64,000 bases of DNA from Sipunculus nudus (Eukaryota; Annelida; Sipuncula; Golfingiida; Sipunculidae), in NCBI GenBank assembly GCA_026874595.1, contig CM049316.1, positions 31,973,339-32,037,338 of the forward strand, given 5' to 3'. This document shows positions 4,833 through 63,250 of this stretch, one piece after another (positions within the stretch are counted from its first letter, which is position 1; each line of letters starts with the position of its first letter). A program made the translations under genes and the position numbers. The notes beneath the pieces are model-generated. The model was not told where the DNA came from. It saw only the letters and a list, made by a program, of their open reading frames with translations, and ran no database searches.

Positions 4833-5150
4833 TTAGTAGATGATCCTAATTATGAGACCGATGCCAGTTAGTAATAAAGCGACAACTCGTGTCCACCAGT
4901 CGTGAGGTGTAACTTTCTTACTTTCCCAAAAAGCAAAACAAAAGCTTATCACGAGCGAAATCTCCCCAGCAACTTCAAATCCAAAACCAACGTATGTGTG
5001 GAAAATGGAGATTACCATGCTGATCAATACAATACTGAACCCAATGTACCAGAAAATCCGATCTAGTGACGTGCGGGTAAGCTCTGAACAGCAGATATTC
5101 GCAATGGCAAAGATCTCAGCAACAAACTCTGGCAGTAACGCCCAATGCAT
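4833..5150 (-). CDS. T1: single-exon four-TM small membrane protein
   Basis: 105 residues on the minus strand; start context GAGAAAATGCATTGG, stop TAA. Predicted membrane segments lie at about residues 4-21, 32-54, 55-75 and 87-104, leaving little outside the membrane. It resembles T6 in length and order: both begin M-x-W, have F-V-A-[ED]-[IM]-F-A in segment 1 and I-S-F within segment 3. It has no intron, unlike T2-T5 and T7. Paired TTCCGGGAA words lie about 590 bp upstream (5738-5746, 5753-5761). Function unknown; membrane location is inferred from hydrophobicity. An intronless retrocopy is possible, but no poly(A) tail or target duplication is visible. Confidence 0.65.
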   Translation of the reverse strand: MHWALLPEFVAEIFAIANICCSELTRTSLDRIFWYIGFSIVLISMVISIFHTYVGFGFEVAGEISLVISFCFAFWESKKVTPHDWWTRVVALLLTGIGLIIRIIY

Positions 5151-5639
5151 TTTCTCTCACAGATTGTAAACGATATCACCGCTATGTCTCGTATCAAAGA
5201 AAATGTTGGAGCCTCTGTTTGCTAACCACTTATAATATGCCGATTCACTCAGCTGTAAACGTGCTAATTTGCTATTGGCTGATGATCACGTAACGTTGAC
5301 ACATGGTAATAAAATCGGTAAGTTTACCAACAAACAAACCCGTTGTGCTTATCAATAAGGCCACAAAACAAATTGTCTACGGAATCGCTTCTCCTGTTGA
5401 TCAGGCTTTACTTTTGATAAGGAAGAATGACCAAACCTTCTCAGTCCTGATGTTGCTGATTGCTACTCTTGTCTAAAATCCTTCAGAGAAATCACCACTT
5501 GTTTTGATATTGTTATATTTTCATCATGAAAGCATCACTGAGAATAAATGTATACTAATAGTGTTCATCTATGGAATTTCAAGAACATATTTTTCTTTTA
5601 TTCTTACAAATAACTGTGCTTCGACATGTAAGAAACAAA
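5151..5639. other. 5' flank of T1, no other feature
   Basis: Immediately upstream of T1 on the minus strand. No clear TATA box and no open frame with coding character. Confidence 0.5.
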
Positions 5640-60292: not shown

Positions 60293-60325
60293 GTGGACAA
60301 GCTCGCTGACACACGACTTGTAGAG

Positions 60326-63250
60326 ATGTTTTGCTGGTGGAACCTGCCAGATGTATGCGGAAAGGCCATACTCCTCCTCACTATAGTGATCAACTTTGTC
60401 CGTTGCTGCTCGGACCGACATGTGTACAAATGCGTGTTGTGTCTCCAGATATTAAGCTTTGTCGTCAATATCGTAAGCGACTTCTTATGGGCTATATGGC
60501 TACCCAGAGTGAGTGTGGTTGTTTTATTCTCACAGTAAATGTTTAATGCTGACAATGCATATGAATGTCTATGTGTAGTAAATAAAAAATTCAACTTCGG
60601 ATAAGCAGTTCTTATCAGATTACCCATCTCGTTATAAGGCGGATTTTGTTTGAGATGATTTTTAAATATAGGAGAACACACATGCAGGATGGATGATAAA
60701 TGATGAATTATAAATTAATTTATTATTAATCATAATTGAATGAGTAGTAGTAGTAATAGCGTGGCAAAGCGTCAATGGAATAGAATTAACTCTCTTCACT
60801 CCTTTGAAAATAAAGACGCAAATAATTCATTAAATGTATAGTGATGTCTTCTATTCAGAGGATAAATATTATTCTTTATGTAAACAATAGGCTAAATATA
60901 ACACTCATTAACACCAAAAAAAAGATATACAGTTATTAAAATAACTAAGTTATATAATATTATATTTCTGTTTATAGTTAAGTCTATTTTAGAACTGCAC
61001 ATACATTCACTAAAGCCCAAAACAGACTAACGCCCGCGTCACGCGCGCGTCAAGCGTCACGCGTGCGCCACGCGGCAAATTCAAAACACACTAACGCGGC
61101 TACAACGCGCACGACACGCGTCAGATTGGAAGGTATTAACCGAGCAACTATTGCATTTTTTGTTTATCTTTGTAAAAATAGTAATTTCGATAATCAGCGT
61201 TGGATTACTTGTATACAAATATATATGTTTTGTGACCTGTTCTAAATATGACCGAACTCAGTCACTATTATGAACGATATTTATATATCTGTGTTGCTTT
61301 GTTTCATATTTTCTATCCAGACACAAATGAATAATTATAGTTCAATGAATTATAACAAACGTTTCAGCCCGGAGTTTTATATAGAATTGGAGTGCTGGGG
61401 AGGGAAACCCTCTATTTATTTATGTCATTATCAGGAATCCCCACGCGGCTAGCGCGCGTCACGCGTCAAAAATCGCTCCAGGAGCGATAGCTGACGCTTG
61501 ACGCTTGACGCGCGCGTGACGCGCGCGTGACGCTGTTTTGTCATTGATAAATAGAGTGGAGCGATTTTTTCCAGATTTGACGCTTGACGCGTTAGTGTGT
61601 TTTGGGCTTAACACTGCACCACATATATAAACTTAAATAATATACTTATTATGTTTTTGTGGTAAACATTAAATCAGGGGCGGATCCAAGATCCCTTAAA
61701 TTAAAGCGTTTGTGGTGGCTGAAAAAAGATTGGGGGGGGGGGGGGGTCCGGACTCTCGGAAAACCCTAACCCCCCCCCCCCCCGTATCCGTTTCTGTATG
61801 CTAAATATAAAATTTAGAAGAGTATACTCAGTAATACACCCATAAATATATATATATATATATATATATATATATAAATATATTAAATAAATTTATTTAT
61901 ATTCTGTATTGTTGAATACATGCTTAAAATTTTAATTAATAAATTATTTTCACCAATCACAGGCATTAAGAAATTTATAATTCAAAGAGGACTGTCTTTC
62001 CTTTTACAGGAATCCCTAGGAGATGCCCTGAAGAGGTACTGGACAACATGCGAGTCGTACCATTACAGCGACTCGGAGGCTGCAGTGTGGATAATCGGGA
62101 TCAAGTCGGCCAGCGAGGTCACCATCTTCCTGGCTCTCATTATACAATGCTGCTGCGACTGCCGTGGACAGTCCAGCCGGAAAAGCACGCGGAGACCAGT
62201 GTGTGACGTCATCTTGCAGATCCTGACCTTCTTGTTACAGACCTTCATCCTTGGGTACCTGTGGTATAAGTATCTTGGTAACGGGTGAGTTTTTTTTTCT
62301 ATTGACAAAGAGATTACCTTAAAGTGCTGTATATCTAAGCTCTCGAAGTATTACCCAATTTTAAACAGGTCTCTGCGACTCTATATATGTGTCTTGGTCT
62401 TTCTTTAATGCTCTCTCTCTTTCTCTGTCTCCCCCCCCCCCCTCTCTCTCTCTCTCTCTCTCTCTCTCTCTCTCTCTCTCTCTCTCTCTCTTTCAGCGTA
62501 CCCCTCTCTCTGACTCTGTATGGATCTCGGTCTGTCTCTCTCTGTATCTGGCTTTGGTTACCTCTCTCTACGTATAGCTTTGTCTCTGTCTCCGTGTCCC
62601 TGCCAGCCTCTAGGTCTCTCTCTCTCTTTCTCTGCCCCTCTCTTTGACTCTGTATGTATCTCTGTGTGTCTCTCTCTATATCTATCTTTGTTTACCTCAC
62701 TCTAGGTCTGGCTCTGCCTGTTTCTCCGTGTCCCTGCCTACCTCTAGGTCTTTCTCTCCCTCCTCTCTCTCTCTCTCTCTCTCTCTCTCTCTCTCTCTCT
62801 CTGTGCATGCAACTCTCTCTGACTCTATATGTATCTCCTCTCTCTCTCTTTTTTCTCTCCCTCCCTCTCTCTCTCTCCGCCCCTTAATCTGACTCGCTAT
62901 GTATCTTTCCCCCCCTCTCTTAGTTTTTCTGTCTGTCTCTGTCTTTGCTTTTCTCCCAGTGCCTCTGCCTTCCTCTGTGTCTCTGTCTCTGTGTCAGTCT
63001 CTCTCTCTCTCTCTCTCTCTCTCTCTCTCTCTCTCTCTCTCTCTCTCTCTCTCTCTCTCTCTCTCGCTCTTGCTTAATGATGCTACAAAGAAAATTACCA
63101 GTCCGGCATTCTTTTCGGTTATTTAAAATTTTTAAGATATATTTTTTTTTGTCTAGTTGTTTTAATTTATGTAATAAAACAATAATTCACACATTATTGT
63201 TTTTCTTTAACAGGAGTACTTTGACCACGAAGGAAAATCATTTTAAGTGA
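60326..63250 (+). CDS. T7: four-TM small membrane protein, three exons
   Basis: Exons 60326-60508, 62010-62284 and 63214-63250; donors AGA|GTGAGT and GG|GTGAGT, acceptors ACAG|GAA and ACAG|GAG; phases 0 and 2. Product 164 residues from the ATG in GTAGAGATGTTTTGC (an in-frame GTG at 60293 is not needed). Membrane segments at about 12-28, 37-58, 87-110 and 126-148. Introns follow segments 2 and 4 as in T4. Segment 2 starts C-L-Q-I-L-S-F, like C-L-Q-I-T-S-L in T4. The loop between segments 3 and 4 is rich in Cys and Arg (C-C-C-D-C-R, then S-S-R-K-S-T-R-R), a possible palmitoylation and membrane-contact site. The tail exon is STLTTKENHFK. Exon 2 is more GC-rich than its surroundings. Intron 1 carries two MITEs, intron 2 a long (CT)n tract. 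Looks intact; function unknown. Confidence 0.8.
61014..61608. mobile_element. CpG-rich MITE with TAA target duplication
   Basis: 595 bp in T7 intron 1. Ends AGCCCAAAACAGACTAACGC and, inverted, AGCCCAAAACACACTAACGC (19 of 20 identical), flanked on both sides by TAA. Subterminal parts are packed with CGCGTCACGCG-like and GACGCTTGACGC words, also inverted between the two ends. The centre (about 61120-61430) is AT-rich with no transposase. TIR plus a TAA duplication fits PIF/Harbinger-type MITEs (TWA target). Small frames inside it are not genes. Confidence 0.85.
61675..61796. mobile_element. Short G-run/C-run MITE-like element, copy 2
   Basis: CAGGGGCGGATCC at the left and GTATCCGTTTCTG at the right (inverted, 9 of 13 matching), enclosing a long G run, GTCCGGACTCTCGG and a long C run. 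Same type as 899-1100. It lies 66 bp after the CpG-rich MITE. Confidence 0.65.
61846..61876. repeat. (AT)n microsatellite in T7 intron 1
   Basis: TA run about 130 bp upstream of exon 2. Confidence 0.9.
62400..63070. repeat. ~670-bp CT-rich tract in T7 intron 2
   Basis: Pure (CT)n at about 62441-62491, 62766-62802 and 62998-63066, linked by interrupted TCTCTGTCTC / CTCTGTATGTATCTC segments that themselves repeat (TGACTCTGTATG, TGACTCTATATG). It starts about 115 bp after exon 2 and ends about 145 bp before exon 3. All serine-leucine frames across it are artefacts. Confidence 0.95.

Follow-up and report, generated by a model that had tools for sequence, protein, structure and literature searches.

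A possible birth-and-death cluster of small tetraspan-type membrane-protein genes on a Sipunculus nudus chromosome

Seven very small genes (T1 to T7), whose products share a plan of four transmembrane (TM) segments, lie side by side on chromosome C11 of Sipunculus nudus, raising the question of whether they form one local family and how proteins with almost no soluble part might work. They are contained in a stretch of 64,000 nucleotides (CM049316.1, C11:31973339-32037338), hereafter the window. We also read 100 kb on either side of it (264 kb in total) and searched the assembly (1.43 Gb in 153 contigs) for relatives. With a probability of about 0.45, we read the locus as part of a birth-and-death cluster of tetraspan-type membrane proteins, most likely acting by lateral assembly in the membrane. 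The original prediction had taken the seven genes for one local family. A single seven-member family is not supported, because T1 falls into another family and T6 remains unplaced; nor are the genes purely local, as the first family (family A) also occurs on chromosome C8 and the second (family B) has a copy on C3.

The relatives of T2, T3, T4, T5 and T7 outside the window are twins of T2 and T3 (T2up and T3up), a twin of T4 with the same three-exon layout, some 6 kb before the window start (T4up), the one close paralogue of T7 that was found, 66 kb past the window end (T7dn), and a second cluster on C8 (in the region 12.09-12.30 Mb), consisting of C8a, C8b, the interrupted C8c and a fourth place, a fragment. 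The genome searches used single-protein queries in six frames, ignored introns and gave scores for the best candidates only. Queried with T4, they reached the C8 places weakly (E-values, E, of 0.03-1.4); the reverse query with C8a found T4 at E 0.0016, and the T4-C8a alignment has a z-score of 22.7, z-scores here comparing local or global alignments with hydropathy-preserving shuffles.

On account of z-scores, profile matches and a match that ends at a shared intron, T2, T3, T4, T5 and T7 are taken to share an ancestor, T2 and T3 being the least certain. T4 and T7 reach z 7.4 in local and 5.4 in global alignment, with none of 400 shuffles scoring as high. The T4 group, five proteins, aligns with the T7 pair in hhalign over 121 columns with a probability of 89% and E 2.1e-6, reversed controls giving E 0.011 and 0.012. 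When T7 is left out of the T4-group profile, exon 1 of T7 is still recovered, at E 0.0011 among 5,944 open reading frames (ORFs); one ORF of L019, a weak T4 match on C5, outranks it in the same search (E 0.00035) and is taken as a chance match. T2up and T4 give z 4.7 local and 4.0 global (1 and 0 of 400 shuffles as high). Their hhalign match, with a probability of only 21%, spans TM2 and ends exactly at the shared intron, and exon 1 of T4 is the sole non-member listed by a T2 profile (E 0.014). T2up is weak against C8a (z 0.5 local, 0.2 global) and against T7 (1.0 and 2.5). For the intron-bearing genes, such values agree with the earlier proposal of an old or fast-evolving family.

Family A genes have one exon per two TM segments, with a phase-0 intron right after TM2. 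This intron lies at a homologous position in T2, T4, T5, T7, T2up, T4up, T7dn, C8a and C8b, and alignment of the decayed exons places it there in T3 and T3up as well; an intron after segment 2 had been predicted for T2 and T3, and was found at the corresponding position. In T4 the two predicted junctions, 20805/21008 and 21262/21487, both have GT-AG borders and lie in phase 0, and the layout recurs in T5, T4up, C8a and C8b. The first junction in these five genes reads WSLE (WLFE in C8b) followed by DDP, and exon 3, after the second phase-0 intron, has 13 codons with the stop in T4, T4up and T5, 14 in C8a and 22 in C8b. Because these relatives keep the junctions and exon 3, the T4-type gene models are regarded as settled. 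In T7, too, both introns have GT-AG borders, at 60508/62010 in phase 0 and at 62284/63214 in phase 2, and intron 1 is kept in T7dn. Exon 2 of T7dn ends at a GT donor in phase 2 as in T7, but has an in-frame stop at the same point, and an exon 3 looked for in T7dn was not found, so exon 3 of T7 is unconfirmed. The predicted plan of two hairpin exons and a short tail thus stands for the intron-bearing genes, apart from the tail of T7. Coordinates are collected in Table 1.

Table 1. Genes and exons of the C11 cluster; T1 to T7 in window positions, T8 to T11 in C11 positions.
Feature	Position	Strand	Description	Basis or comparison
T1	4833..5150	-	intact intronless four-segment ORF, 105 amino acids, family B	ORF, hydropathy
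T2 exon 1	11627..11880	+	TM1-TM2, family A, frameshifted relative to T2up	
T2 exon 2	12017..12208	+	TM3-TM4 and stop, family A	
T3 exon 1	14051..14283	+	decayed: stops and frame breaks	alignment to T3up
T3 exon 2	14448..14648	+	TM3-TM4, open, family A	
T4 exon 1	20620..20805	+	TM1-TM2, intact, family A	
T4 exon 2	21008..21262	+	TM3-TM4	
T4 exon 3	21487..21525	+	13 codons including stop	counterparts in T4up, T5, C8a and C8b (longer)
T5 exon 1	26098..26283	+	in-frame stop at codon 3 after the ATG aligned to the T4 ATG	
T5 exon 2	26553..26789	+	TM3-TM4	
T5 exon 3	26991..27029	+	13 codons including stop	
T6	34754..35071	-	intact intronless four-segment ORF, 105 amino acids, unplaced	
T7 exon 1	60326..60508	+	TM1-TM2, family A	
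T7 exon 2	62010..62284	+	TM3-TM4, phase-2 end	
T7 exon 3	63214..63250	+	candidate: short tail and stop	no counterpart found in paralogue T7dn
T8	32095962-32096306	-	family B	profile searches, ORF scan
T9	32114272-32114721	-	family B	profile searches, ORF scan
T10	32060059	-	family B	profile searches, ORF scan
T11	32066825	-	family B	profile searches, ORF scan

The cluster spans at least 31.934-32.115 Mb of C11. In this cluster the plus strand carries all nine family A copies (T2up, T3up, T4up, T2, T3, T4, T5, T7 and T7dn), and the minus strand carries T6 and the six family B copies named here (T1up, T1, T10, T11, T8 and T9). T8 to T11 all lie downstream of the window, and T1up, a broken twin of T1, upstream. 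Window positions 1704-22071 match C11:31934329-31967472 with 69-93% DNA identity, in many separate blocks. The order of these is largely kept, and T1-T2-T3-T4 and the upstream twins are therefore attributed to segmental duplication, of which further pieces reach window position 28 kb. Duplication has been accompanied by damage: T2 carries a frameshift, exon 1 of T3 is decayed and T5 has a stop at codon 3, and these three genes are probably pseudogenes, leaving four of the seven (T1, T4, T6 and T7) intact. Neither the broken genes nor the duplicated nature of the left part of the window had been noticed in the original prediction. Turnover of the cluster by segmental duplication and loss would be ongoing.

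Selection was gauged from the ratio of nonsynonymous to synonymous differences per site (pN/pS) in ten gene pairs, with 95% bootstrap intervals; the pairs are not independent, and the broken T5, T2 and T3 were read in their open parts only. The ratio is clearly below 1 in seven pairs (0.48-0.64): T7-T7dn 0.49 (0.38-0.64), T4-T5 0.60 (0.45-0.80), T4up-T5 0.55 (0.41-0.74), T4-C8a 0.54 (0.45-0.66), T5-C8a 0.48 (0.40-0.59), T1 and its C3 copy 0.55 (0.43-0.69), and exon 2 of T2-T3 0.64 (0.45-0.92). The other three, T4-T4up at 0.88 (0.53-1.66), C8a-C8b at 1.03 (0.74-1.48) and exon 2 of T2-T2up at 0.60 (0.32-1.26), are indistinguishable from 1. Purifying selection between distant members is shown, recent pairs being indistinguishable from neutral; in our reading, the family would be retained by selection over the long term while recent copies are freely lost. 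The same data can be read more pessimistically, with the cluster as mostly a graveyard, in which duplicates of one or two functional genes decay and the copies in the window have little function of their own. The disruption of T2, T3, T5, T3up, T1up, C8c and the T6 relative, together with the ratios near 1 for T4-T4up and C8a-C8b, is what this would predict, but open frames are found in T1, T4, T6, T7, T4up, C8a, C8b and the C3 gene, pN/pS is below 1 in seven of the ten pairs, and splice sites and even the short exon 3 have been retained. We consider this unlikely, if still to be taken seriously.

By its sequence relationships, T1 belongs to a separate family, family B. Beyond the cluster copies, it has a broken relative at C11:31.139 Mb (E 6e-11), a weak one at C11:31.142 Mb (E 0.22) and an open one at C3:91.292 Mb, with 114 amino acids and three segments called (genome-search E 0.095, z 8.9 local and 7.0 global). 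Within the cluster, T8 and T9 are close (z 21.2), T1 and T9 are related (5.1 and 4.5), and T1 against T8 is not significant. By eye, T9 starts at a splice acceptor, T10 has its start in another frame and T11 stops before the fourth segment; this leaves T1, T8 and the C3 gene as the only ones that look complete and free of introns. As had been predicted, T1 and T6 each consist of one intronless four-segment ORF. A scan of the 264 kb for ATG-to-stop ORFs of 90-200 amino acids with at least four hydrophobic segments gave nine, of which six were set aside and the remaining three are T1, T6 and T8; 20 simulated 241-kb stretches (order-2 Markov, minisatellite excluded) yielded one four-segment ORF altogether. 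The six set-aside ORFs overlap and all come from a Cys-rich low-complexity stretch just 3' of T7dn, at C11:32106785-32108870, which is probably repeat DNA.

T6 is an orphan, unplaced by these comparisons. Its z-scores are 4.1 local and 4.7 global against T1 (none of 500 shuffles as high), 2.4 and 2.7 against T8, -0.4 and 0.9 against T9, and 0.1 and -0.2 against the C3 relative. It is absent from the 36 ORFs listed at E of 5 or less by a family B profile built without it, and hhalign gives family B against T6 a probability of 0.6%. A genome search with T6 found two other places, a decayed copy at C11:17.926 Mb and a second at chance level.

Could all seven genes nevertheless form one superfamily, with T1 and T6 as intronless copies arisen, for example, by retroposition? 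They have the four-segment plan in common, T1 and T4 have a local z of 2.8 (4 of 400 shuffles as high; 2.3 in a repeat, 17 of 500), T1 and T2up a global z of 2.2-2.3, and the family B profile does list the family A first exons of T5, C8a and T4up, though with E-values no better than chance (0.56-1.3). Neither hhalign nor the shuffles revealed homology of T1 or T6 to T4. The comparison of profile A1 with profile A3, which addresses T1 and family A, gave E 0.0074, a poorer value than the 0.002 of the reversed controls, z between T6 and family A is at most 1.2, and a profile of family B with T6 matched family A with a probability of 2% (E 0.023, reversed 0.16). Besides, the T1 relatives form a family of their own, and T9, judged by eye, seems to start at a splice acceptor. 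A common superfamily therefore seems improbable to us.

How the proteins would work has to be read from their few conserved positions. Among eight aligned family A proteins, the only invariant columns are Q41, the glutamine in TM2, and L131. TM3 contains a glutamate and/or an aspartate in seven of them (Asp100 in six, Glu97 in five), and TM4 has Asn132 in six. The T4 group has 26 invariant columns, including E9, Q41, W55, W59, the sequence E-D-D-P, D100, N132 and G133; the acidic EDDP step coincides with its exon junction. The TM2-TM3 loop is the longest in T4, C8a and T7 (33-35 amino acids) and the first loop in T2up (35 amino acids, compared with 7-18 in T1, T4, T6, T7 and C8a), while the TM3-TM4 loop measures 5-23 amino acids in those six proteins, out of seven, for which four segments were called. 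Net charges of +7 for the first loop of T4 and +4 for the third of T7, with -1 and -2 for the middle loops, favour a cytosolic location of the TM1-TM2 and TM3-TM4 loops, with both termini outside.

In the working we propose, each two-helix hairpin of a family A protein is encoded by one exon, to which the T4 line, and probably T7, adds a short exon for the tail, and the family B genes are interspersed among the family A genes on the opposite strand. In T4, T7 and C8a, the Cys-rich basic loops would lie on the cytosolic side, and the conserved polar residues inside the helices would mediate lateral assembly in the membrane, with copies of the same protein or with partner proteins, in the manner of small tetraspan adaptors. 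Lateral assembly is suggested because there is almost no soluble part and because of the conserved polar in-helix positions and the EDDP step. Several findings weigh against this reading. T4, C8a and T7 have basic C-terminal tails, which disagree with termini on the outside, and T2up does not have the charge pattern (first loop -1, middle loop +1). The AlphaFold models, made for T1 and T6, do show the four helices, but with a mean predicted local distance difference test score (pLDDT) of 55.5 for T1 (T6 being the sole aligned row) and 58.7 for T6 (alone) they are weak, so that four helices are all that can be read from them. To these must be added the three broken genes among the seven of the window and the three of ten pairs not separable from pN/pS 1.

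The polar positions might instead line a pore. Oligomeric channels, in which the TM2 glutamine, the TM3 glutamate or aspartate and the TM4 asparagine of several four-helix subunits surround the conduit, would account for conserved polar and acidic residues within hydrophobic helices and for the near-absence of a soluble domain. Such residues could equally serve to hold helices together, however, and no channel family gave a significant Pfam or PDB profile match; we regard a channel as quite unlikely.

In family A, TM2 and TM4 look alike (for instance LQILSF and LQILTF in T7), which is suggestive of a two-helix exon having been duplicated to give rise to the family. Comparing exon 1 with exon 2, hhalign gives a probability of 26% and E 7e-4 for the eight members (reversed controls 0.13 and 0.026) and E 0.0012 for the T7 pair alone (reversed 0.38 and 0.47). 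Without T2up, the seven remaining members give E 0.0021, against 0.0061 and 0.0011 for reversed controls, and the five T4-type members alone give E 0.049. Shuffle z-scores are mostly between -1 and 3, the highest being 5.6, with single values of 4.3 and 5.0 in the reversed control; summed z-scores of 5.9 and 7.0 include the relatedness of the members and are without a reversed counterpart. If true, this origin would show in legible form how a two-helix exon can give a four-helix protein. The fuller scheme, in which TM1-TM2 and TM3-TM4 are ancient repeats, each followed by an intron, and families A and B encode fast co-evolving partner subunits of one recognition or defence-like complex, has very little probability in our estimate, although, if A and B are partners, the cluster might be a recognition or barrier system under rapid evolution.

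Comparison with known families agrees with the original prediction, which could name none. In a Pfam scan of 14 proteins (HMMER filters on, listing up to E 10), no family reached its cut-off, and PMP22/claudin, MARVEL and tetraspanin families were not listed. In profile searches of the PDB, A1 and A2 had no match, and the four matches of A3 and the one of A4, all with E of at least 0.31, were judged to be chance. The locus would thus hold a small membrane-protein family without significant Pfam or PDB match, in which the gene layout corresponds to the helix hairpins. The sub-threshold candidates for T1 or the T4 type were rejected. DUF4728 (PF15860) weakly matched T4 and T5 (best E 2.8, far below cut-off) and, among the T4-type proteins, two of five (best E 3.3), collinearly and over TM3-TM4 where the alignment was printed; it was rejected after a genome search with it found four places, none in the cluster. 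For T1, alkaline ceramidase (PF05875; E 0.00053, 19.9 bits where the cut-off is 32.5), as well as BTP (E 0.0014) and DUF7139 (E 0.02), were below threshold and unlisted for the C3 relative, and Hemotin matched one T4-type protein below cut-off (E 0.012). A search with egg lysin (PF01303), as a clue to the taxon, gave no match, which does not by itself show absence.

Claudins carry the signature W-(G/N)LW-C-C in a large first loop, and tetraspanins have a large second extracellular loop with CCG. The claudin motif is in none of ten proteins inspected and CCG in one, T7dn, and the lengths given above for the first and the TM3-TM4 loops do not fit such large loops. With the clan that unites PMP22/claudin, MARVEL and tetraspanin proteins, the window proteins have the four TM helices in common; many clan members form homotypic or heterotypic oligomers (PMC4582180). 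The nearest comparison found is with Pasiflora and Fire exit, Drosophila septate-junction tetraspans described in the same paper (PMC4582180), which reports Pasiflora1 orthologues in molluscs. Like the present proteins, the Pasiflora proteins are small, have four TM segments, are dissimilar in sequence to other tetraspan families and occur as several diverged members per genome (PMC4582180). In contrast to them, T4, T7 and C8a have their longest loop between TM2 and TM3. Of the Pasiflora motifs, PW at the start of TM3 is absent from eight of the ten proteins and stands elsewhere in C8b (tail) and T6 (first loop), and the VxSQYQ at the end of Pasiflora1 TM4 is in none of the ten, a bare VxS occurring elsewhere and within TM4 of T2up. 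A literature search turned up no description that we recognised as this family, and we make no claim that it is unpublished.

Several repeats lie among the genes. Window positions 37620-59929 hold a minisatellite of 22 kb, in which a 51-bp unit recurs about 438 times with 87% match. Its long minus-strand ORFs, of up to 1512 amino acids, are due to a period of 17 codons: stops interrupt five of 325 anchored units in the long-ORF frame, and 320 and 294 in the other frames. Third codon positions (variability 0.081) are no more variable than second positions (0.092), so no coding signal is seen. A diverged tandem repeat of about 340-360 bp occupies 22080-23293 and, in the opposite orientation, 32297-34051, with other copies near C11:31.950, 31.970, 32.090, 32.109 and 32.116 Mb, and a 268-bp tandem repeat (2.8 copies) lies at 23521-24278. 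Between T2 and T3 are short minisatellites at 13056-13183 and 13638-13876, with units of 11/22 bp and 21/42 bp. A 159-amino-acid ORF at 10410-10889 may resemble the C-terminal part of a non-LTR (long terminal repeat) reverse transcriptase.

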